From the IMG/VR virus record IMGVR_UViG_3300018476_000038, positions 1 through 25,513 of that record: a DNA stretch of 25,513 nucleotides; one strand, given 5' to 3'. A program made the translations under genes and the position numbers. Source of the DNA: a virus. This document shows, in pieces, positions 1,631 through 24,109 of the stretch (the stretch's first letter is position 1; each line of letters starts with the position of its first letter). The notes beneath the pieces are model-generated. The model saw only the letters and a program-made list of their open reading frames with translations, did not search any database and was not told where the DNA came from.

Positions 1631-1913
1631 GCACGACAGCGAATTGCCCCTTCCGGACGACGTAGAGCTGGAAGGAGCGATCGATAGCGAGGCAGAACCC
1701 CACTGGGATGCCCTCCCGGACCCTGACGACACTGGTCGGGACCACGAGGGCATCCCCTGGGTCTGCTACTTCTGTCAAAGTGATGGACCGCTCTGGGTCT
1801 TTGAGGTTACGGACCCGGACGGCAAGGGCACGGGCATTCACCTCTGTGAGGAGCATGCCCTGCATGTGATTCTCACTCTGGGACTGCCCACCGCCGAGGA
1901 GGAGGGTACATGA
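1629..1913 (+). CDS. small putative Zn-binding protein (94 aa)
   Basis: ATG at 1629 lies at the last AGCGA repeat; a GAAGGA (1618-1623) can serve as SD. The N-terminal 40 residues are strongly acidic. Residues 45-78 contain CYFC and, about 24 residues on, HLCEEH, i.e. a CxxC ... CxxH set able to bind one zinc, as in small treble-clef or zinc-ribbon proteins. It ends in an ATGA overlap with the ParB-like gene, so the two are translationally coupled. A DNA- or protein-binding helper to that protein is possible; function unknown. Confidence 0.7.
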   Translation: MHDSELPLPDDVELEGAIDSEAEPHWDALPDPDDTGRDHEGIPWVCYFCQSDGPLWVFEVTDPDGKGTGIHLCEEHALHVILTLGLPTAEEEGT

Positions 1914-2824
1914 GTACGATTGACTCGATCAACGTCAAGGTCAGCGAGCCGATGATGGCTCCTGACGGGCAGCCGATCGCGGTACTGCCAAACCAGCTGA
2001 ACCTGGTCAGCCCACTCAGGGAGCCCGAGAAGATCGCGCTCCAGGAGTCGATCCAGGTCCACGGGGTCAAGATCCCGATCATGATCAGCCTTGGCCCCAC
2101 GAGGGGCCGGATCATTGACGGGTTCAACCGGTGGGAGATCTGCCAGCAGCTCGGGATGAGTTGCCCCGTCTCCTTCGAGCTGTTTCAGTCGGTGGACGAG
2201 GAGGAGACCATGGCACTGGGTCTCAACGTCCAGAGGAGGCAGCTGGACGAGCTCTCGGCCGGTCTGATCAACATGAGGCTGCTGGAGCTGAGGGGCATCA
2301 CCCGGGGCCGGAAGGGTCTCAACGGGGTGACGGTAAGTGACGTTGCCCGGGAGGCCGGCCAGACGGAGCGGACCTTCTACCGGCGGATCGAGTTCGCCAA
2401 GCTGGTCACTCGGCCCGACTGCTCCGACATCCTCCAGGCGTACCAGGCGGAGGAGGTCACGGTCACCGAGGCGCTGACCCTCAGCCGGGCGAGGAAGAAG
2501 GCCGCGGACGCAGGGATGCCCCACACCCCGGACCCCAACAAGAGCCTCAAGGACATGGTGGCCCAGCTCAAGACGAGGAAGCAGATCACCCCCATCGAGC
2601 AGGCCCGGATGGAGGCGTTCACCGAGGGGGTCAGGTGGGGCTTCGAGGCCGGTGCCGGCAACAAGGCAGAGCCCGACTGGATCCTGGAGCAGCTGGACTC
2701 CTGGCGCCGGTCGAGCTCGCTCAGGGATCAGGCCGAGGCCAAGCAGCCCGAGACAGAAACCCCCAACGTATCGGAGATGGACAACCCTCCGGTCCAACCT
2801 ACGCTTGAGGTGAATGAGGACTAG
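1910..2824 (+). CDS. ParB/KorB-like DNA-binding protein
   Basis: This 304-residue protein begins with a ParB/sulfiredoxin-type N-terminal domain. Residues 35-85 run from the LREPEKIALQESIQVHG helix to a box II-like motif, IIDGFNRWEICQQLG (residues 68-82), matching the classical I-D-G-x-x-R pattern. Then comes a ParB-like LNVQRRQLDELSAGL segment (about 104-118) and a helix-turn-helix, VSDVAREAGQTERTFYRRI (about 141-159). The C-terminal 60 residues are acidic and disordered. Known ParB-like phage proteins act in plasmid-prophage partition, transcription control or as nucleases; which applies here is not visible. No ParA ATPase is in the window. The phased AGCGA array just upstream is a candidate binding site (inference). 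Confidence 0.8.
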   Translation: MSTIDSINVKVSEPMMAPDGQPIAVLPNQLNLVSPLREPEKIALQESIQVHGVKIPIMISLGPTRGRIIDGFNRWEICQQLGMSCPVSFELFQSVDEEETMALGLNVQRRQLDELSAGLINMRLLELRGITRGRKGLNGVTVSDVAREAGQTERTFYRRIEFAKLVTRPDCSDILQAYQAEEVTVTEALTLSRARKKAADAGMPHTPDPNKSLKDMVAQLKTRKQITPIEQARMEAFTEGVRWGFEAGAGNKAEPDWILEQLDSWRRSSSLRDQAEAKQPETETPNVSEMDNPPVQPTLEVNED

Positions 2825-3506: not shown

Positions 3507-3534
3507 ATGGGGCCGCGACAGCGGCCCCATTTTT
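3507..3534 (+). terminator. intrinsic terminator
   Basis: A perfect 10-bp stem, ATGGGGCCGC (3507-3516) and GCGGCCCCAT (3521-3530), with a GACA loop, followed by five T (3530-3534). This is a textbook Rho-independent terminator ending the leftmost operon. It lies only 24 nt upstream of the endolysin start. Confidence 0.85.
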
Positions 3535-3557
3535 GTACCTCGAAGGAGGACCCGCTC

Positions 3558-4187
3558 GTGGCTGTCTGGAAGACGTACTACCAGCTAGGGTTTGACCCGC
3601 CCGAGAAGACCCCCGAGGCATGGGCGATGCTGGCGATCAAGACCGAGATCGTCTACAACGGCATCCCCCAGGGCGGGATGGACACCACTGACCCGACCTT
3701 CGGTAAGGGGACCGACGAGAAGGTCCGGGAGTTCCAGGCCAGCCAGGCGGGTCTGGACGTCGACGGGATCATCGGCCCCTGGACGGCCCACCGGCTGTTC
3801 CGGAAGCGGGTCCTTGAGGTCGAGAAGAAGCTGGCCCTCCCTCAGGGGATGCTCTGCAAGCTCAAGAGCCTCGAGTCCTCGGACGACCCGGCAGCGCTCT
3901 CGGACGACAAGCATGATCGCGGGCCGGTACAGATCAACGACCTCTCCCACCCCCAGGTGAGCGACAAGGACTGCTACAACCCGTCCTTCTGCTTCCTCTG
4001 GGCGGGCCAGTACCTCCGGAGTGCCTACGACGGCATCCGGACGGTCGACGGACAGAAGGACTGGGACCTGGCGCTGGCCTCCTACAACGTCGGTTGGGGT
4101 GGCGCCCGCCGCTGGGACCGGGCTGGTCGGCCCCGGACTGCAACCGCCTACAACTACGTGAAGGTGGTTAAGAACCGCGTCTGCTAG
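3558..4187 (+). CDS. endolysin: peptidoglycan-binding domain plus lytic transglycosylase
   Basis: The GTG at 3558 is chosen because the SD AAGGAGGA (3543-3550) sits 7 nt upstream; the in-frame ATG at 3507 lies in the terminator stem and is not credible. The protein has 209 residues. Residues 45-81 look like a peptidoglycan-binding type 1 domain (VREFQASQAGLDVDGIIGP). Residues 94-205 resemble an SLT/goose-lysozyme fold: candidate catalytic Glu106 in LKSLESS, GPVQIN (122-127), and an ALASYNVGWGGARRW motif typical of these enzymes. It would cut the glycan strands of the cell wall at lysis, or at entry if virion-borne. No signal peptide is seen, so export needs a holin or similar. Confidence 0.85.
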   Translation: MAVWKTYYQLGFDPPEKTPEAWAMLAIKTEIVYNGIPQGGMDTTDPTFGKGTDEKVREFQASQAGLDVDGIIGPWTAHRLFRKRVLEVEKKLALPQGMLCKLKSLESSDDPAALSDDKHDRGPVQINDLSHPQVSDKDCYNPSFCFLWAGQYLRSAYDGIRTVDGQKDWDLALASYNVGWGGARRWDRAGRPRTATAYNYVKVVKNRVC

Positions 4188-4251: not shown

Positions 4252-4289
4252 CCGGGACCGACCTTCCCTTCCTCCTGGGTCGGTCCCGG
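4252..4289. terminator. hairpin terminator between convergent genes
   Basis: A perfect 12-bp stem, CCGGGACCGACC (4252-4263) and GGTCGGTCCCGG (4278-4289), with a 14-nt loop. It lies between the endolysin gene (plus) and the minus-strand membrane-protein gene, whose stop is at 4294. The T-rich tail (TCTATT) is weak on the plus side and absent on the minus side, so efficiency is uncertain, but the position suits a bidirectional terminator. Confidence 0.65.
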
Positions 4290-4293
4290 TCTA

Positions 4294-4404
4294 TTACCGG
4301 CGGCGGTTGTTGTTGAGCCAGACCAGTCCCACGAGGATGGCGATGGCCAGGGCACCGATGATCAACCAGGTGGTCAGTTGGGATGAGGTGACGAGGAGAG
4401 GCAT
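4294..4404 (-). CDS. 36-residue single-pass membrane protein
   Basis: The ATG at 4404 is preferred over longer in-frame starts because a perfect TATAAT box lies 6 nt upstream, giving a leaderless mRNA. The product has a short polar N-terminus, one hydrophobic helix (residues 10-30, TTWLIIGALAIAILVGLVWL) and a basic tail (NNNRRR), implying N-out/C-in topology by the positive-inside rule. It could be a small holin, an antiholin or an exclusion peptide: the endolysin gene lies just beyond the shared terminator, but on the other strand. Function unknown. Confidence 0.6.
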   Translation of the reverse strand: MPLLVTSSQLTTWLIIGALAIAILVGLVWLNNNRRR

Positions 4405-4410
4405 GGGTGG

Positions 4411-4416
4411 ATTATA
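4411..4416 (-). promoter_or_regulatory. -10 box TATAAT for the 36-residue membrane protein
   Basis: On the minus strand TATAAT is followed by six bases and then the ATG at 4404. It overlaps the TAA stop of the upstream minus-strand gene (4412-4414). No clear -35 is seen 16-18 nt upstream. A consensus hexamer at this spacing supports a separate leaderless transcript. Confidence 0.5.
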
Positions 4417-5266
4417 TCCTGATCTCGGCCTGGGGATAGTAGCGGCGACCAGACGATGAGCCACCCTTGATGGCCCGGTAGCGGTGGAGCTCGCAGAGCC
4501 CGTCCTCAATTCCCCTCAAGGAGAGTGGCCGGCCCTCCAGGAAGTGGAAGTCCCTCGCCTCCAGGGCCTCGACGCTTTTCTCCTGGAGTCCCCGGATGAG
4601 CATTCGGGCCACTCCCCGCTGAACGGGATGGCCGAGCATCCAACTGAGGCACTCCAGCGAGCCGGTGTGGGGAAAGACGTCCGAGTCCTCGGTGAAGCTC
4701 ACTAGGTCGGTGTAGGTGAGGTCACAGCAGATCACGTAGGCCACGAACGGCCCGACTCCCTGAATCTCGGCGAGCATCTGGTAGGTGGCCCCCATCGTCT
4801 CCCCGTACAGGCATTGCTCCACCTCGGGGAGCCACCTGGCCCACTGCTGGGAGGCTAGCAAGCTGTTCTCGATCGGGTTCATCCCACCGAGATGCATGAA
4901 GGGGCTCGTGCGGTACGCCCGGGTGTAGGGGTTCACCCCGGCCACCCGGAGCTTCAGGTCGTTGGGGAGTGGCCCCGTGAGGGGCATCAACCGCTCGGCA
5001 GCCGAGATGGTGTTGAAGTGCCGGTAGGCTACCAGGTTGAGCAGGATGTTCCCCGGCTCCAGCTGCGGGAGCAGCTCCTCCCTCAGGTACTTGGTCCCAG
5101 TATCAAGTTCTCGGTAGACGTTTGGGAACTGCCACTGCTGGAGAACCCTATCCAGGGTCCACGGCCAGTTCATTCCCTTTTCCCGCCTGACCCAGATCCG
5201 CTGGCGCTCTGCCAGGTACTCCCACAGTTCTTCTGATCGGCCGCGGTAAAGTTGGAGGATAGACAC
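4412..5266 (-). CDS. HMUDK_hel / aGPT-PPlase-like protein, predicted thymine hypermodification
   Basis: The GTG at 5266 is preferred because a TATAGT box lies 9 nt upstream with no SD; an in-frame TTG at 5287 would add 7 residues. The 284-residue product matches, from memory, the pattern of the all-helical family first named alpha-glutamyl/putrescinyl-thymine pyrophosphorylase and later 5-hmdU DNA kinase helical domain. It has RQRIWVRREKG (21-31), PWTLDRVLQQWQFPNVYRELD (35-55) and a helix-hairpin-helix-like GVGPFVAYVICCDLTYTD (170-187). In phages that replace thymine with 5-hydroxymethyluracil, relatives act on the hydroxymethyl base in DNA, activating it for further decoration that blocks host restriction. 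No P-loop kinase partner is visible here. It is one of only two genes on the minus strand. Confidence 0.7.
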   Translation of the reverse strand: MSILQLYRGRSEELWEYLAERQRIWVRREKGMNWPWTLDRVLQQWQFPNVYRELDTGTKYLREELLPQLEPGNILLNLVAYRHFNTISAAERLMPLTGPLPNDLKLRVAGVNPYTRAYRTSPFMHLGGMNPIENSLLASQQWARWLPEVEQCLYGETMGATYQMLAEIQGVGPFVAYVICCDLTYTDLVSFTEDSDVFPHTGSLECLSWMLGHPVQRGVARMLIRGLQEKSVEALEARDFHFLEGRPLSLRGIEDGLCELHRYRAIKGGSSSGRRYYPQAEIRI

Positions 5267-5268
5267 GC

Positions 5269-5297
5269 TGGACACACTATAGCCCAACCTCTATACT
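5269..5297 (+). promoter_or_regulatory. sigma70-like promoter TGGACA-N17-TATACT
   Basis: TGGACA (5269-5274, five of six bases of TTGACA) and TATACT (5292-5297) are separated by exactly 17 nt, and the ATG of the ribbon-helix-helix gene follows 7 nt later, so the mRNA is probably leaderless. This is the best complete promoter in the window. Its -35 overlaps the start region of the divergent minus-strand gene, so binding by the encoded RHH protein could control both directions (inference). Confidence 0.6.
5276..5281 (-). promoter_or_regulatory. candidate -10 box (TATAGT), minus strand
   Basis: TATAGT on the minus strand lies 9 nt before the GTG at 5266, giving a leaderless start for the hypermodification gene. 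It lies back to back with the plus-strand TATACT box at 5292, 10 bp apart, forming a compact divergent promoter. No -35 is recognised for this direction. Confidence 0.45.
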
Positions 5298-5304
5298 CGA
5301 TCCT

Positions 5305-5481
5305 ATGGCATCCCAACCCATCATCTCGTCCTCGGTCCCGGACGAAGTGGTCCTCCAGCTCGACGAGATCGCTAAGGACCGGGACACTACCCGCTCAGTC
5401 GTGGTTTGCCAGCTACTCCAGTACGCCCTCAACGAGTACAACAAGGTCCACAACCGGTTCAGGGAGGTGAGTCAGGTATGA
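5305..5481 (+). CDS. ribbon-helix-helix (CopG/Arc-like) regulator (58 aa)
   Basis: A short gene beginning at an ATG 7 nt after TATACT, without SD. The product shows the RHH plan: a beta-strand IISSSVP (6-12), helix 1 DEVVLQLDEIAKDRD (13-27), the typical turn TTRS, and helix 2 VVVCQLLQYALNEYNK (32-47). RHH dimers bind short operators and often repress their own promoter. The position directly downstream of a divergent promoter suggests it controls itself and the hypermodification gene on the other strand. It could also be an antitoxin, but the neighbour does not look like a toxin. The stop overlaps the next start (ATGA). Confidence 0.75.
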   Translation: MASQPIISSSVPDEVVLQLDEIAKDRDTTRSVVVCQLLQYALNEYNKVHNRFREVSQV

Positions 5482-5747
5482 AGAACGCGGTTCTCAAGCG
5501 ACCCCTCAAGCGGATGAATGGCCTCACCGACACCACGCTGCACACTCGGGCTCGACTCTGCTCTACCTGCCGGCGCTACCTCAAGGCCGGGACCCCGGTG
5601 GTCGTCTTCACCGCTCCCGCCTCGCCCCACCTCTTCAGAAACGAGCCGGCTCCGGTCCGGCTGACGGAGCAGGGCGAGAAGGTGGCCAAGACCACGATCT
5701 TCTGCTCTGACGAGTGCGGCGAGATCTACCTCGGCCTGGACCAATAG
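5478..5747 (+). CDS. small putative zinc-finger protein (89 aa)
   Basis: The ATG at 5478 is chosen because it overlaps the RHH stop (ATGA) and follows AGGGAGG (5461-5467); an upstream in-frame ATG at 5406 would lie inside the RHH gene without an SD. The product has LCSTCRRYLKAG (residues about 31-42) and, near the end, FCSDECGEIYL, i.e. CxxC and CxxxC pairs about 40 residues apart, able to form a treble-clef or zinc-ribbon site. Such mini-proteins often bind nucleic acids. The N-terminus is basic. Function unknown; co-transcribed with the RHH gene. Confidence 0.7.
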   Translation: MKNAVLKRPLKRMNGLTDTTLHTRARLCSTCRRYLKAGTPVVVFTAPASPHLFRNEPAPVRLTEQGEKVAKTTIFCSDECGEIYLGLDQ

Positions 5748-5888: not shown

Positions 5889-6356
5889 ATGATGCAACTT
5901 TGTGGCGCAGCGAACCGATCGGGCAACCCTTGTGGCATGCCCGCCCTGGACAACGGAAGGTGCCGAATCCACGGTGGCCTCTCCACGGGGCCAGTCAATC
6001 CCGCCGTGAAGCAGGGCTTGTACCGCAAGCACCTCACCGGCGAGGAGCAGGAACTCTTCGACGCCCTCAAGTCGGACACCAAGTACGAGGACCTCACGAC
6101 TGAGGTCGCGATGATTCGGGTGATGATTCATCGCTGCTTCGGCCACGTGATGGCAGACGACTCTCAGAACTGGCGCGTTCCCATGCAGGTGATGCCCCAG
6201 TACATCGAGAAGCTGCTCAAGGCCCTCGACAAGGTCCAGCCGCACAAGAACAAGACCGCTCTCGAGGACTCGCTGGACGACGCGATCGCCCAGATGCTCT
6301 CCGAGGAGAAGGACGTTCAGCAGCTCGAGACAGATCGCGCTCGCGAAGAGCTGTGA
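5889..6356 (+). CDS. HGG-motif protein, candidate terminase small subunit
   Basis: ATG at 5889 with SD AGGAGG (5874-5879) 9 nt upstream. The 155-residue product begins with a cysteine/histidine module, LCGAANRSGNPCGMPALDNG followed by RCRIHGG and STGP. This pattern is widespread in small phage proteins encoded directly before the large terminase, and its CxnCxnCxxH set probably binds zinc. The remainder is helical. The position (GTGA overlap with the large terminase) suggests the DNA-recognition subunit of the packaging motor, though the motif alone does not prove it. Confidence 0.65.
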   Translation: MMQLCGAANRSGNPCGMPALDNGRCRIHGGLSTGPVNPAVKQGLYRKHLTGEEQELFDALKSDTKYEDLTTEVAMIRVMIHRCFGHVMADDSQNWRVPMQVMPQYIEKLLKALDKVQPHKNKTALEDSLDDAIAQMLSEEKDVQQLETDRAREEL

Positions 6357-17133: not shown

Positions 17134-17403
17134 ATGTCGGGATGGCATTCCCGGCACGGCTCGTGGTGGGCGGTGCACTGGTGTCTCTCCCAGGGCTTCA
17201 CGATCCTGCCGGGACTGCACCTGGACTGGCATCGGCGGCAGACGGCCCGGGAGGGGATCAAGTTTGGCCCCTACCTGGACCTCCACTGGGCCTTTGGGAT
17301 CGTCAGCGTGGGAGTGAACCCGATCTGGAGTACCGAGTTGGCGATCAACTACCGGCCGGGGAAGCGCGCTGACGGGCTAGGCGCTGGGCTCGAGGCCGAC
17401 TGA
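17134..17403 (+). CDS. Trp/His-rich hypothetical protein (89 aa)
   Basis: ATG at 17134 with SD GGGAGGAG (17117-17124, 9 nt spacing). The stop overlaps the start of the giant glycine-rich gene (TGATG), which decides this frame over an alternative one starting at 17142. The product is unusually rich in Trp and His (SGWHSRHGSWWAVHWCLSQG, HLDWHRRQ, LDLHWAFGIVSVGVNP). There is no clear membrane helix. No known family; it may be a small structural or chaperone protein for the fibre encoded next. Confidence 0.6.
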   Translation: MSGWHSRHGSWWAVHWCLSQGFTILPGLHLDWHRRQTAREGIKFGPYLDLHWAFGIVSVGVNPIWSTELAINYRPGKRADGLGAGLEAD

Positions 17404-20400
17404 TGGCTACCGCTGGCTACAAGATCCTGTGTCTGGCGCCAGGAGGTGGCGGCGGTGCCTCGCTGACCGGGGGTAGTGGCGGCGCGTTCGCGATCGGCTT
17501 CGGCGACTCGGGATTCAACGGGGCAGCGGGCGGAGCGGGCCGGGCCGCGACCGGTACGACCACGGGCGCGGGCGGCGGGTCGAGCGGCGGTACGGCCGCG
17601 AACGGCAACGTGGGGGCGACCTCGTTGGCCGGCGGCGCGGGAGGCGCGGCTCCGACTGGTGGCTCGGCGGGTGGCAGTGGCGCTAGCGGCGCGGCGGGTG
17701 GTGCTGGCTTCAACGGCGGCGGCGGTGCCGGTGGTGGCTCTACCTCCGGCGCGGGTGCGGCGGGCGGCAGTGCGCTGGGCGGCAGGGCGCTGGTGGACGG
17801 CGTCAACTACACCGCGAGCGGCACGCACGTGGTCGCGGCTGGCAAGACGTCGATCGTGATTGAGTGCTGGGGCGGGGGCGGCGGTGGTCAGGCCGGGTCC
17901 ACGAACGTGAGTGCCGGGGCGGGTGGCGGCGGCGGAGCCTACCTGAAGTCCACCGTCGCGGTCACGCCCGGAGACGTGCTGACCATCAACATCGGGGCTG
18001 CCGCGGCGGGCGGTGGCGCTAGTGCTGCCGCGGGCTCCGCCGGTGCTCCGGTGAGCGTCACGACCGGCGGGGTCCTGTGTCTCGCGGCGGGTGGCGGCTC
18101 GGTGGGTGCGGGTGGCCCGACCGGATCGGTAGGCGGCACGGCGGCGAACAGCGTCGGCACGACGAAGTTCTCGGGCGGAGCGGGCGGCACGACGACCGGC
18201 TCATCGCCTGCTTCCGGTGGTGGGTCGAGCGCGGGCACGGCCACGAACGGCAACACGGGCGGGGCGAGTGGGGTCGGTACGGGCGGTGCGGCTCCGACTG
18301 GTGGTGGCGCGGGCGGGGCGGGTGTCTCCACGGGCAACGGGAACCCGGGTAGTGCTCCTGGCGGTGGTGGTGGTGGTCCGGGTTCTGGCGGCTCGGTGCT
18401 CGGCGGTGCTGGTGGTGCTGGAAAGGTGATCGTAGACGGTACGACGTACTCGACTCCCGGGACCTTCGTCCATACCGTCGCGGCAGGCAAGACGAGCATT
18501 GATATTGAGTGCTGGGGCGGCGGCGGCACAGGCAGCATGAGCGCGATTCAGACTGGTCATGCGGGCGGCGGCGGGGCGTACTCGAAAGCGACTGCCGTCG
18601 CCGTCGTGCCGGGGGAAAAGCTGGCGGTCATCGTTGCCCCGGCCGTCCTGAATGTCACCGTACTGCAACTCGGGGTTCCGTCGATCGCCAACGCCTCGGG
18701 ATTCTCGTCGTCCGTTCAGGCGCTCGGGTCACCGTTTACCTTCTCCAACGGCACGGAGGGGTGGGTGTTCAACGCGGCTGGTGGTACGGGTCTAACTGGG
18801 CTTGCCTCCACCAACTTCGCGGACAGCACGAACGACTCATCGCTCCAGGCGGGGGTGTTGTACGCGCGGCGGGACGGTAAGAGCCTGACTGGTGCGGCGT
18901 CGTACTGGGAGTGGACGGGCACGTGGGAGGACCTGGGCGTCCCGGTAGGGGCGATCGTGTCGGCCGTTAACCTTGACTACGACTGGCAGTGTGTGCTCTA
19001 CTCGACGGGAGCTAGCTCGTCGGTTGGTCCAGCCGAGCTTCGCGACAACGCGGGGACGCTACGGAACACGATCAGTACCGCGCCGACGGCGGTTACGGCC
19101 ACGTCAGCCTGGGCGGCCCGGACGGGTACGAACCAGACGGGCCTGTCGGACGACTCCAATACGCCGATCAAGCTGCGGATCGGTGTGAAGCCGAACACCG
19201 GTTCCTCCACGTCGGCGCAGGTCGCGATGCTGCTCGACTACGTGCGGGTGGCGGTCACGTACGCCATGCCGGTGGCACCGGTAGGTCCATCGCACTCGTG
19301 GACGCACGAGAACCAGCTGATCAGCGAGTACGGTACCATCAACACGACCGGTGGCACGGTCGCCCTTACCTCGGCCCAGGCCCACAGCGGTACCCAGAGC
19401 CTACGCATCAACCGGACCTCGAACGCGGACGTCCGGGCGCAGTGGGACTACAACTGGGACGGCAACCGGCGGACCTGTGGCTCGGCCTGGATTCGGGTGG
19501 CTTCCTACCCGACCGCGACCTGCCCGATCATCATCCAGTTCTTCGGGACGGCCGACAACTTTGAGGTGCGGCTGTCACCCACCGGGCAAGTGTTCGCCGG
19601 TCGCCAGAACAGCGGCCAGTCCGCGGCGGCCTCGGCGACGTTGGTGCCGCTCAACACCTGGACTCAGATCTCGTGGTGGGGCAATAGCTCCACCAGCACC
19701 TTCGAGATCAAGGCAGCGGTAGGAGCCGACACGCCGGTGAGCTATACCTGGGCGACGACAGCCGAGACACCAGCCGGCCTTTGTTTCGGGTCACGGTCGT
19801 TCGCCACCGCCTCGCTGTACGACATCTACTTCGACGATGCTTACACCTACATCGGGTCAATTCTGCCGGCAGATCCCGCTCCTGACCCGACGGCGTTCCC
19901 GTCGGTAGGAGTGATCGACACCTTCAACCGCGCCGACGTGGGGCCGCCCCCGAGCGCGAGCTGGTCGACTGACATCCGCGGGCAAGCGAAGCCGGGTATG
20001 AGGGTAGTGAGTAACCAGCTGGCTGCCAGCGCGGGTGGCCCGGCTGAGTGCAGCACCTGGTGGAACGCCACCTCGTTCGGCGCCGATGAGGACGTCTTCA
20101 TCACCCAGAAGGTGGGCGGTGACTTCACCAACTTCCAGCTGTGGGGCAGGGCGACGAACGCGGGCGCGAGCGGCGTTACGGCCTACGTGCTGAACCTGTT
20201 CCACGGCGGGTTTAACTTCCAGCGATACGAGAGCAGTGCCTACACCGCTCTTACTGGCACCATCACTCACGTCCTCGACGTTGACTGGGGAGTTGGCTTC
20301 CGGATCCGGGGGACGGAGCTGACGTGCTGGGTGAAGCCGCCCGCTGGCTCCTGGACGGTGCTGGCTCGACAGCACGACGCCAAGCTGGCTACTGGTACCC

Positions 20401-20543
20401 GCACGGGGATCGCCTTGTATGACTCGAACCTGACGTACGACGACTATGGCGCGGGCACCCTGGTTCCCGCCGTTGCCTCCACGTACGTGCGTAACCGCCC
20501 GGCAGTGGCACGCCAGGCGGTCATGAGAGCGACGGTTCGGTAA
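17403..20543 (+). CDS. giant glycine-rich adhesin/fibre protein with ConA-like domains (1046 aa)
   Basis: ATG in a TGATG overlap. Residues 1-430 are Gly/Ala/Ser/Thr-rich and contain two diverged copies of a module: VDGVNYTASGTHVVAAGKTS with IECWGGGG (about 130-165) and VDGTTYSTPGTFVHTVAAGK with IECWGGGG (about 341-375). Each opens a GGGGAY-rich sheet of polyglycine type II character, as seen in some phage adhesin tips. Residues 440-625 are a beta-sandwich. About 630-830 and 838-1025 are two ConA/LamG-like domains (HSGTQSLRINR; DTFNRADVGPPPSASW), folds that bind sugars. No hydrolase motif is seen. Likely a receptor- or glycan-binding virion fibre. Confidence 0.8.
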   Translation: MATAGYKILCLAPGGGGGASLTGGSGGAFAIGFGDSGFNGAAGGAGRAATGTTTGAGGGSSGGTAANGNVGATSLAGGAGGAAPTGGSAGGSGASGAAGGAGFNGGGGAGGGSTSGAGAAGGSALGGRALVDGVNYTASGTHVVAAGKTSIVIECWGGGGGGQAGSTNVSAGAGGGGGAYLKSTVAVTPGDVLTINIGAAAAGGGASAAAGSAGAPVSVTTGGVLCLAAGGGSVGAGGPTGSVGGTAANSVGTTKFSGGAGGTTTGSSPASGGGSSAGTATNGNTGGASGVGTGGAAPTGGGAGGAGVSTGNGNPGSAPGGGGGGPGSGGSVLGGAGGAGKVIVDGTTYSTPGTFVHTVAAGKTSIDIECWGGGGTGSMSAIQTGHAGGGGAYSKATAVAVVPGEKLAVIVAPAVLNVTVLQLGVPSIANASGFSSSVQALGSPFTFSNGTEGWVFNAAGGTGLTGLASTNFADSTNDSSLQAGVLYARRDGKSLTGAASYWEWTGTWEDLGVPVGAIVSAVNLDYDWQCVLYSTGASSSVGPAELRDNAGTLRNTISTAPTAVTATSAWAARTGTNQTGLSDDSNTPIKLRIGVKPNTGSSTSAQVAMLLDYVRVAVTYAMPVAPVGPSHSWTHENQLISEYGTINTTGGTVALTSAQAHSGTQSLRINRTSNADVRAQWDYNWDGNRRTCGSAWIRVASYPTATCPIIIQFFGTADNFEVRLSPTGQVFAGRQNSGQSAAASATLVPLNTWTQISWWGNSSTSTFEIKAAVGADTPVSYTWATTAETPAGLCFGSRSFATASLYDIYFDDAYTYIGSILPADPAPDPTAFPSVGVIDTFNRADVGPPPSASWSTDIRGQAKPGMRVVSNQLAASAGGPAECSTWWNATSFGADEDVFITQKVGGDFTNFQLWGRATNAGASGVTAYVLNLFHGGFNFQRYESSAYTALTGTITHVLDVDWGVGFRIRGTELTCWVKPPAGSWTVLARQHDAKLATGTRTGIALYDSNLTYDDYGAGTLVPAVASTYVRNRPAVARQAVMRATVR

Positions 20544-23500
20544 TGGCCCGTACCGGTCGCAGCTTTCCCATCCACAACCAGCTCCGGCGGAACCCCTCGT
20601 TCAAGGCACCCGCTGGTCCTGGACCGTTTGCCCTGCCAGCCGTTACTAGCCGGGGAACCTCGGCGGTTAACGCGGTCAAGAACTATCCGTTTGAGGGCGC
20701 CTCGGCGGTAGCAGATTTTGGTAGCGTGGTAACGACGGGTGGCACGGTCGCCTACAGCACCAACCACGCTCGCAGCGGCACGAAGTCCCTGAGGCTGAAC
20801 CGCACCTCAGCGGCACAGCTGAACGCCAGTGACGTCGCCCCCTGGGGTTCGGGGAAGCGCGTTAACAGTGGTCGGTTCTGGCTGTGGGTCGACTCGATGC
20901 CGACCGGCGACGTGCCGATCGCCCAGATCCTCTGTAATGTCGGGAGCAACTTCGAGATCTACCTGACCACGACCGGTCAGGTGAAGGCGGCCAAGCAGGG
21001 TGGCGCGGCGTTCTCGTCGGCAAGCGCGACGAGCATTACCACGGGTTCCTGGCAGCGGGTGACGTGGTGGTTTGACACCTCGACCGGCACGGCTCGGGGG
21101 CGAGTGGCGGTCGGCACAGACACGCCCGTTGAAGTGTCCTGGGCCATGGCGGCTGAGGACCAGGCAGAGTGGGTGTTTGGCCCGCGGCTGACCGGTGGCT
21201 CGGGGCTGTTTGACCTCTATTTCGACGATGCCGAGATCTTTGCGGGCACCGCTCTTCAGATCAAGCTTCCTAATCGAACGAGTGCGGGAGCCGCTACCGC
21301 TACTGCCACGGCCCTCAAGAGCCGCCTCCCTGCCCGAACGAGTGCCGGGACGAGCACGGCCACTGCCTCGGCGCTGAGGATCAGACTCCCTAGCCGAAGC
21401 TCAGCCGGTAGTGGTACGGCCCTAGCGGCCGCGCCGAGGATCAAGCTCCCCAGTCGAACCAGTGCGGGTACTTCCACGGCCACCGCCCTGGTGTTCGCGG
21501 TCCCGTTCCCCTCTACGCCGGTACTGGATACCTTCAACCGGGCCGACGTGGGACCACCCCCGTCGGCGAACTGGCACTCCTTCATGCGGTCGAGTACCAC
21601 GACCCAGATGAAGGTCGTGAGCAACCAGCTCACCCACTCGGCCAACAACGCGGACGCCTATTGGATCGGCTCCGCGGTAGGAAATGATCAAGAGGCATAC
21701 GTCACGGTAGGTGCCCTGCTTACTACCGCTAGTTTCCAGCTTCACGTTCGGGGCAACAACCCAGGTGGCTCGACCTTTACGAGCTACATGGTGAACTACG
21801 ACGCGGACACTGGGCCGGTCGCAAATGCTGATCTTTATATCTTCCGGACAAACTCGGGAGGCGGTGTTACCACCCTAGCGTCTATGACGGTAGGAACCGA
21901 TCTGAACACGGGCGATAAGCTGGGGATCCGGGTCCGGGGTACCACCATCGAGGCGTGGGTCAAGTACGGGGCGGGAGCTTGGACCAGGCTCCTGGTGGCA
22001 ACTGACGCGACGTACTCGTCCGGCAGTGTCATTGGCATCTGGTCGAATGAGTTCGGGAGTACATACGACGACTTTGGTGGCGGCACCTTCAACGCCATCT
22101 CGCTGCCGGTGGAGACCAGTGACGGCTCGTCGGTAGCGACCGCCACGGGACTGAGGATCAAGCTACCGAGCTGCTCCAGCGCCGGCTCCTCCACTGCCAC
22201 CGCGACGGCTCTCAAGATCCGGCTCCCCAGTCGAACCACCGCTGGTACCTCTACTGCCACGGCTCAATCTCTGCGGACCAAGCTCGGCAACCTGACGAGT
22301 GGCGGTACCTCTACTGCTACCGCAGCGGCACTTAAGATCCGACTTCCCAATCGGACCAGTGTGGGCGCTGCTACCGCGGTAGCTAACAACGTCAAGATCC
22401 GGCTCCCCAACCGCTCCACCGCGGGGCAGGCTACTGCCTCCGGGAACAACGTTAAGATCCGGCTTCCGAGTAGGACCAGCGCGGGTGTAGGAGCAGCCAC
22501 CACCAACGTTAGGGTGACCCTCCCTGCTAGGACCTCGGCAGGTAGCGCGACGGGCACAGTAGCCACTGCGTTTAAGATTCGGCTTCCAGCGAGGAGCTCG
22601 GCGGGTACGTCCACCGCGGTGGCCCAGGGCGGGTTGAAGGATCGGCTCCCGGCGCTCACCAGTGCCGGCTCATCCACCGCGGTCGCCACGGCGCTGAGGA
22701 TCAGGTTGCCTGCCGTAGCTAGCTCGGGTAGCTCTAACACCTCGGCCGTCAACCTGGTGGCGACGGGTGGCCCTGTCACGCTACCCACCGAGACCTCTAG
22801 TGGCTCCTCTAGCGCGTCCGCGGTAGCTCTAAGGATTTCCCTTCCCTCTAGGTCTAGCGCTGGTACGGGGGCAGCGGGGGCCTCCGCTCTTAGGATTAGG
22901 CTTCCTGGCAGGACCAGTGCTGGGTCGAGCACTGCCGTCGCCTCTGCACTGAAGATCAAGCTCCCAAGCCGGACCAGTGCCGGTAGCAGTACCGCGATCG
23001 CTGGCACGCTGAGGGATCGACTTCCAAACCGGACGAGTGCCGGTAGCTCGACGGCCACTGCCACCGCCCTCAAGATCCGGCTCCCCAACCGGACCTCTGC
23101 CGGTGTCGCGACTACGACGGTCACCAACCTCGCTGGCGCGATCAGTAACCTCCAGTCGGTCACCAGTGCCGGCTCGTCGACCGCTACCGCGAACAACCTC
23201 AAGATTCGGCTTCCCAGCCGCTCCTCGGCAGGCTCGTCGGCTACCACGGCAGCACTAAGGATCAAGCTTCCCAACCGGAGCTCGGCGGGCGCGAGTACCG
23301 TTACCCAGGCGGGGCTCAAGATCAGGCTCCCTACCCGAAGCTCAGCGGGAGCTTCCACTGCTACTGCCACGACCCTCAAGCAGCGGCTTCCTAGCCAGAT
23401 CTGCGCGGGCACCTCTACCGCTACTGCTCAAGCACTGAGGATCCGACTGCCGGCCAGGACGGTTGCCGGTACCTCCTCGACCACTGTTCAGAGCTTGGTG

Positions 23501-24109
23501 GGCGGCTTCCCCCTCAGCAAGAGCCAGGGCACCTCTACCGCCACCGCCAGCGCCTTCAAGATCAAGCTTCCTAGCCGCACCTCGGCCGGTACCTCCACCT
23601 CCACCGCTCAGGGTGGGCTGAGAGATCGCCTCCCAGGGCTGGTGAGCAGTGGCTCATCCACCGCCACGGCGAGAGGGCTCACGGTTCGCCTTCCCTCAGT
23701 GGGCTCTCACTCCCTTAGCACTGCGACGGCTCAGCAGTTCCAGATCAGACTTCCAAGCAGGACCTCGGGCGGCATCTCCACCGCCACCGCGGTGCAGCTC
23801 AGGCTCGGGTACATCGTCACGAGTAGCGGTAGCTCGACCGCGACGGCCCAGCCCTTCCAGATCCGGCTGCCGAGTGTCAGCTCCTCGGGCACCAGTGACA
23901 CCTTTGCTTACTCCTTCCTGTACATCCCGCCACCCCCGAAGGAAGTGGTCGTCTCGAGCTCGGGCCACACGCTGGTGGTCTCGGGCAGTCCTAGCCTAGT
24001 CGTGATGAGTAGCTCCACGCACTTAGTAACCGCCTCCACGAGCAATGCGGTTACATCGGAAGATACCACTGTTGGAGATTTGACTAAGATCGTTACCGCC
24101 TCCCCGTGA
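20543..24109 (+). CDS. giant ConA-like/20-residue-repeat fibre protein (1188 aa)
   Basis: ATG in a TAATG overlap with the previous gene. Residues about 45-235 form a ConA/LamG-like domain (ARSGTKSLRLNR), 237-325 four 20-residue repeats, and 329-517 a second ConA-like domain (DTFNRADVGPPPSANW). Residues 518-1129 hold about 30 more repeats of consensus LPSRTSAGTSTATATALKIR. The tail (1130-1188) is PPPPKEVVVSSSG plus Ser/Thr/Val-rich sequence. The ConA pair is paralogous to that of the upstream gene. Each repeat alternates a Ser/Gly turn with a short beta-strand, so a fibrous beta-solenoid or hairpin stack is likely. It probably forms a long surface fibre that carries sugar-binding heads. Confidence 0.8.
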   Translation: MARTGRSFPIHNQLRRNPSFKAPAGPGPFALPAVTSRGTSAVNAVKNYPFEGASAVADFGSVVTTGGTVAYSTNHARSGTKSLRLNRTSAAQLNASDVAPWGSGKRVNSGRFWLWVDSMPTGDVPIAQILCNVGSNFEIYLTTTGQVKAAKQGGAAFSSASATSITTGSWQRVTWWFDTSTGTARGRVAVGTDTPVEVSWAMAAEDQAEWVFGPRLTGGSGLFDLYFDDAEIFAGTALQIKLPNRTSAGAATATATALKSRLPARTSAGTSTATASALRIRLPSRSSAGSGTALAAAPRIKLPSRTSAGTSTATALVFAVPFPSTPVLDTFNRADVGPPPSANWHSFMRSSTTTQMKVVSNQLTHSANNADAYWIGSAVGNDQEAYVTVGALLTTASFQLHVRGNNPGGSTFTSYMVNYDADTGPVANADLYIFRTNSGGGVTTLASMTVGTDLNTGDKLGIRVRGTTIEAWVKYGAGAWTRLLVATDATYSSGSVIGIWSNEFGSTYDDFGGGTFNAISLPVETSDGSSVATATGLRIKLPSCSSAGSSTATATALKIRLPSRTTAGTSTATAQSLRTKLGNLTSGGTSTATAAALKIRLPNRTSVGAATAVANNVKIRLPNRSTAGQATASGNNVKIRLPSRTSAGVGAATTNVRVTLPARTSAGSATGTVATAFKIRLPARSSAGTSTAVAQGGLKDRLPALTSAGSSTAVATALRIRLPAVASSGSSNTSAVNLVATGGPVTLPTETSSGSSSASAVALRISLPSRSSAGTGAAGASALRIRLPGRTSAGSSTAVASALKIKLPSRTSAGSSTAIAGTLRDRLPNRTSAGSSTATATALKIRLPNRTSAGVATTTVTNLAGAISNLQSVTSAGSSTATANNLKIRLPSRSSAGSSATTAALRIKLPNRSSAGASTVTQAGLKIRLPTRSSAGASTATATTLKQRLPSQICAGTSTATAQALRIRLPARTVAGTSSTTVQSLVGGFPLSKSQGTSTATASAFKIKLPSRTSAGTSTSTAQGGLRDRLPGLVSSGSSTATARGLTVRLPSVGSHSLSTATAQQFQIRLPSRTSGGISTATAVQLRLGYIVTSSGSSTATAQPFQIRLPSVSSSGTSDTFAYSFLYIPPPPKEVVVSSSGHTLVVSGSPSLVVMSSSTHLVTASTSNAVTSEDTTVGDLTKIVTASP
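21255..21500 (+). repeat. coding repeat block 1 (about 4 x 60 bp)
   Basis: Four units encoding the 20-residue LPxRxSAGxSTATAxALxIx repeat, lying between the two ConA-like domains of the 1188-residue protein. Similarity is clear in protein but loose in DNA because synonymous codons differ between copies. Confidence 0.8.
22098..23925 (+). repeat. coding repeat block 2 (about 30 x 60 bp)
   Basis: About 30 tandem units, mostly 60 bp, encoding the same repeat as block 1. A few units are longer (about 22732-22787, 23122-23160, 23497-23520) or shorter. The Leu-Pro pair alone is encoded as CTTCCT, CTCCCC, CTTCCC, CTGCCG, CTACCG, TTGCCT and others, so nucleotide identity between copies is kept low. 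It is a protein repeat, not a CRISPR or minisatellite. Confidence 0.85.

Follow-up and report, generated by a model that had tools for sequence, protein, structure and literature searches.

Proteins of the PF18723 family are used by phages to decorate thymine in their own DNA, which resists bacterial restriction enzymes. Among its carriers are phages from groups whose thymine is known to be hypermodified (YuA/M6-like, Kuttervirus). In M6-like phages, thymidylate synthase (TS) is always accompanied by aG/PT-PPlase1, and 30–40% of the thymidines are replaced in M6 and ViI (PMC9599517). The T-G/T-C preference of the modification was suggested to be set by the kinase step (PMC6449724), and the modification cassette of SN1 has been published (PMC9476957). 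Within the literature surveyed, which did not extend to the pathway's original biochemical papers, no exact biochemical step of PF18723 is established.

We compared with these systems a PF18723 gene carried by a virus contig of 25,513 bases (the window), apparently a fragment of an incomplete phage genome. The YuA/M6-like and Abidjanvirus proteins (YuA gp14, Ab18 ORF13, Sonora gp42) are likewise stand-alone, with about 295–330 aa. They have 12 constant residues in common with the window protein and belong to the clade nearest to it, with moderate support (80/78) in a tree with long branches. However, they are only 23–26% identical to it, they carry GPGxxxG where it has HTGxxxC, and their genes adjoin a P-loop kinase and TS near the DNA polymerase, unlike the window gene. 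The 5-hmdU DNA kinase proteins of Bacillus phages (SP10 F8WQ30, Goe26_01450) also have the PF18723 helical domain in common with the window protein. Goe26_01450 (636 aa) carries a fused PF18748 P-loop kinase domain that is missing from the window protein; SP10 F8WQ30 is of the same length and is named a kinase. The closest solved fold, that of PUGT (gp46 of Pseudomonas phage PaMx11), belongs by its title to the same pathway, but gives no significant sequence match to the window protein and 13–15% identity in the fold alignment. Like the window protein, those of the actinobacteriophages (Microbacterium Carostasia and Neferthena, Brevibacterium LuckyBarnes, Glutamicibacter Montesquieu) stand alone without PF18748, and the portal proteins of Montesquieu and LuckyBarnes are distantly related to the window's. 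Here identity is 20–24%, and the genes lie in early/replication operons near TS, TET-associated-type glycosyltransferases or P-loop kinase 3.

The minus-strand ORF of the window is intact from the GTG at 5266 to the stop at 4412, and a TTG at 5287 is a possible longer start (291-aa reading). An earlier note, made from the letters of this DNA, had attributed it to the 5-hmdU DNA kinase helical domain / aGPT-PPlase-like family. Profile search bore this out: PF18723 (HMUDK_hel, alias aGPT-PPlase1) matched with 125.8 bits, well above the curated cut-off of 25 bits, over residues 19–271 of the 291-aa reading and profile positions 5–272 of 281, and all the motifs quoted in that note were found in the product. 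A six-frame search gave E 8.2e-38 for this locus and no second PF18723 match in the 25,513-base record. PHROG 2396, of unknown function, also matched the protein (E 4.6e-31). Third-position GC (83.5%) resembles that of the neighbouring genes and speaks for coding. Comparison with the orthologue on L002, a related viral contig of 11 kb, gave dN 0.37 and dS 1.27 (dN/dS about 0.29; Nei-Gojobori with Jukes-Cantor correction), and the gene is thus held by purifying selection. This is a real gene of PF18723, under selection, and its family membership is firmly supported by the agreement of HMM, conserved residues and fold.

We then aligned 15 PF18723 members: the window protein, its L002 orthologue and 13 others. 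Twelve positions were identical in all 15 (R21, F47, N49, R52, D55, G172, F174, D182, G202, C258, E259 and Y263). The window protein keeps 12 of the 16 positions constant in the 13 other members; together with L002 it departs at the remaining four (G to H200, P to T201, G to C206 and K to R262), the GPGxxxG of the others reading HTGxxxC in both. The pair forms its own deep branch in the PF18723 tree. An eight-member alignment was too diverse to seed a scan of the collection.

Structure prediction, which had been proposed as a check of the family, gave an all-helical AlphaFold model (pLDDT 78.8, pTM 0.77), built on a shallow alignment of five sequences. Among viral models, Foldseek matched it best to the PF18723 proteins of phiRSL1 (E 3e-9) and SP10 (7e-9), and that of PhiW-14 was also significant. 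Against the PDB, where E-values were 0.02 and above, the top match was PUGT, a phage 5-PmdU glycinyltransferase (8z2n, 8z2m; probability 1.00, TM 0.45, E 0.02), followed with weaker scores by the HhH DNA glycosylases OGG1, AlkA and EndoIII. These matches place the modelled fold in the glycosylase-like group, of which the amino acid:DNA transferases are also members. A sequence-profile search of the PDB returned nothing up to E 1, the link to PUGT coming from the fold search only. Profile-profile comparison of PF18723 with ADDT proteins gave a weak similarity (7.5% probability, P 0.0047) located on the HhH motif and a C-terminal LCE/LCK motif. A role as DNA glycosylase was set aside, the HhH-GPD catalytic Asp apparently having no counterpart at the VFPHTG stretch (judged by eye).

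The earlier note had also proposed a search for partner enzymes. In the 25.5-kb fragment, TS (PF00303), the PF18748 P-loop kinase and ADDT (PF18724) gave no profile match. A hidden kinase was likewise rejected, the PF18748 search and a scan of the window ORFs of 60 aa or more for Walker A (GxxxxGK[ST]) both being empty. Since the record is a fragment of a genome, the window says little on the absence of partners. Queries with the PF18723 protein, capsid, portal and terminase found no longer relative of this phage in the viral contigs, the only close relatives there being L002 and the 6–7 kb contigs L011 and L026. Genome contigs gave none, so that neither a host nor partner genes were identified. 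A ParB-like gene is listed in a thymidine hypermodification cluster proposed for Rhodococcus phage Tonitrus (PMC11955845); the ParB-like protein of the window (1910–2824, plus strand), which carries an HTH, gave only weak matches to ParB PHROGs and was not retained as a modification partner.

The family at large showed a regular association. A TS homologue was found by profile in nine of the nine longer PF18723 phage records tested (Carostasia, Neferthena, Sonora, Ab18, Goe26, LysYB1 and the IMG/VR contigs behind L009, L010 and L028) and by annotation in three more, Montesquieu (TS/pyrimidine hydroxymethylase), LuckyBarnes and YuA. The base rate is 1,343 of 50,697 phage records (2.6%) by tblastn, a rough figure from a search less sensitive than the profile search. 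In L028 the operon reads ADDT, FAD-dependent enzyme, P-loop protein, acetyltransferase, PF18723, TS and HD (the names were read from the gene sequences, and profile matches confirmed PF18724 and PF00303). PF18724 was above its cut-off in 4 of 11 related records, namely Sonora, Ab18 and those behind L009 and L028. PF18748 was found in Sonora, Ab18 (below curated cut-off), Goe26, LysYB1, YuA and Det7, and was absent from six of 12 longer records: the complete genomes of Carostasia, Neferthena, Montesquieu and LuckyBarnes and the records behind L009 and L010. Other P-loop kinases (PF18751) occur in Montesquieu, and TET-associated-type glycosyltransferases (PF20691) in LuckyBarnes and Carostasia.

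That the gene stands alone without a fused kinase, as the earlier note pointed out, is correct for the window, but this is not a peculiarity: with fusion to PF18748 in one of the 15 aligned members (Goe26) and PF18748 missing from half of the longer records, the unfused state is ordinary. The helical domain thus commonly occurs without the P-loop kinase that gave it its Pfam name, which makes its own biochemical step a testable question; the label 'helical domain of the kinase' may hide a step that PF18723 carries out independently. As a separate observation, LuckyBarnes (L037, 31993–36008) and Microbacterium phage Carostasia (L003, 2387–7519) combine PF18723, TS and PF20691 without PF18748, gene sets that hint at glycosylation of 5-hmdU in actinobacteriophages and at a role of PF18723 that does not depend on the kinase.

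The window is part of a phage. Its ParB-like gene and the genes for endolysin, TerS, TerL, portal, protease, capsid and tail all lie on the plus strand, and the PF18723 gene is reversed relative to these structural genes, as had been noted before, between endolysin and TerS (Table 1).

Table 1. Features at and around the PF18723 gene of the window.
Feature	Position	Strand	Evidence and remarks
HMUDK_hel (aGPT-PPlase1-type) protein gene	4412..5266	-	284 aa, GTG start; PF18723 E 2.7e-36; fold match to PUGT and HhH glycosylases; purifying selection
Endolysin (PG_binding_1 + SLT)	3507..4187	+	Profile matches; convergent neighbour, conserved in L002
Terminase small subunit	5889..6356	+	PHROG 1889 E 4.4e-05; next conserved gene on the other side; L002 orthologue
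Small ribbon-helix-helix (RHH, CopG-like) protein, 58 aa	5305..5481	+	RHH_1 E 0.004, under curated cut-off; divergent from PF18723 gene; absent from L002
Putative -10 TATAGT	5276..5281	-	By eye; 9 nt before GTG start of PF18723 gene; leaderless-type promoter
Divergent promoter-like site TGGACA-17-TATACT	5269..5297	+	10 of 12 consensus positions matched; shuffled sequence would give 0.3 sites
Perfect 12-nt inverted repeat CCGGGACCGACC/GGTCGGTCCCGG	4252..4289		In the gap where endolysin and minus-strand genes converge; possibly a terminator for both directions; no T run

L002 is collinear with the window, with about 72–83% nucleotide identity in aligned blocks, and its PF18723 orthologue (61% identity) occupies the same place in the same orientation. 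The divergent small gene differs, the RHH protein of the window being replaced by an unrelated 102-aa protein. In both phages the spacer holds overlapping divergent promoter-like sites. The rightward one, found by the promoter scan in both (TGGACT-16-TATACT in L002), faces in the window an operon of the RHH gene, a zinc-ribbon-like gene, TerS and further genes. Towards the PF18723 gene the scan found a site only in L002 (-10 TAGAAT, 7 nt before the ATG); in the window the -10 in this direction has no good -35. Where measured, -10 elements lie 7–9 nt before start codons, as for leaderless transcripts. The locus is mildly new in its own deep branch, its four departures, its reversed site between endolysin and terminase and its conserved divergent promoter region. 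With it the thymine-hypermodification family gains a deeply diverged branch that belongs to an uncultivated phage group; in other respects it is a predictable addition to known phage counter-restriction systems.

From what was observed directly (family membership, class of fold, residue conservation, purifying selection, synteny and PF18723/TS co-occurrence), we consider that the window protein probably serves post-replicative thymine hypermodification of the phage's own DNA, as an HhH-like DNA binder; its place in the pathway is drawn from family association. In such a scheme, a TS homologue of the phage, the presumed source, would make 5-hydroxymethyl-dUMP and the polymerase would place 5-hmdU into phage DNA. 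The window protein, with an HhH-glycosylase-like fold apparently devoid of the catalytic Asp, would then grip DNA containing 5-hmdU or 5-phosphomethyl-dU and present the bound base in trans to a partner enzyme (P-loop kinase, amino-acid transferase or glycosyltransferase) for phosphorylation or replacement, and the modified thymine would shield the phage genome from host restriction. The partners would be encoded in the unsequenced part of the genome, and the protein's own step would be recognition or flipping of the base, presentation rather than catalysis, as we infer. The earlier note went as far as hypermodified DNA in this phage: by the family's association with TS and its occurrence in groups with hypermodified thymine this is the likeliest state, and the virion thymine is likely to be modified, but the fragment contributes no partner enzyme to the claim. 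Counting against the pathway are the lack of TS, PF18748, ADDT or any other modification gene in these 25.5 kb, the reversed position in a late region as opposed to the replication/modification operons of other phages, and the change of four family-constant positions in the window and L002.

A serious rival, to the mechanism only and not to the pathway, is that the PF18723 protein is itself a catalytic transferase/pyrophosphorylase (aGPT-PPlase), which would replace the activated 5-hydroxymethyl group with an amino acid or amine. PUGT as the closest solved structure argues for this, as does PF18723 in the four complete genomes that lack PF18748. However, ADDT forms a family of its own, found alongside PF18723 in the Sonora, Ab18 and L009/L028 records, so the two are not simply redundant; the similarity between their profiles is weak, and PF18723 is fused to a kinase in Goe26. 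Catalysis by the protein is accordingly a possibility that we regard as rather doubtful, base presentation within the pathway remaining our preferred reading.

Minus-strand orientation, an own promoter-like site, an adjacent small RHH gene and a window free of partner genes would also suit a moron-like stand-alone gene that would act, for example, on the host's DNA or on 5-hmdU-containing DNA of competing phages, in defence or superinfection exclusion. We keep this rival because an anti-phage role has been validated for a bacterial defence system that includes a 5-hydroxymethyluracil kinase; an aGPT-PPlase domain was also predicted to be defensive (PMC13092281). It is nonetheless a lesser rival than the transferase role and an unlikely one: PADLOC models gave no match up to E 0.1, every longer PF18723 record tested has a TS homologue, and the gene is kept in L002 while its divergent neighbour changes, which fits a phage-tied function better than a cassette, though compatible with both. 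Somewhat more speculative again is that the HTGxxxC branch, alone by the lysis and packaging genes and behind a leaderless-type promoter of its own, no longer belongs to the kinase/TS pathway and is a solo late actor; if improbably so, it could target the DNA being packaged, or DNA of the host or of rival phages. A relic or laterally acquired gene without present function, to which the isolated, reversed position and the four departures at otherwise constant positions could point, is hardly credible given the full-length ORF, the 12 constant residues kept, the low dN/dS and a location and promoter arrangement that two diverged phages have in common.

Several other features of the window were recorded. 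The zinc-ribbon-like protein (CxxC...CxxxC; 5478–5747, plus strand) overlaps the RHH gene by an ATGA; the two genes head the rightward packaging operon and are replaced in L002 by another small gene. A 36-aa ORF (4294–4404, minus strand) with one likely membrane span follows the PF18723 gene directly, converges with the endolysin and possibly encodes a small lysis protein; L002 has no room for it, as the PF18723 gene and endolysin overlap there by 4 bases. Neither Rfam families nor tRNAs were found in the window. In the tail region, a 1188-aa protein (20543–24109, plus strand) consists of many diverged repeats of the LP.RTSAG.STATA..LKIR type, and the glycine-rich 1046-aa protein preceding it (17403–20543) is likewise repetitive.
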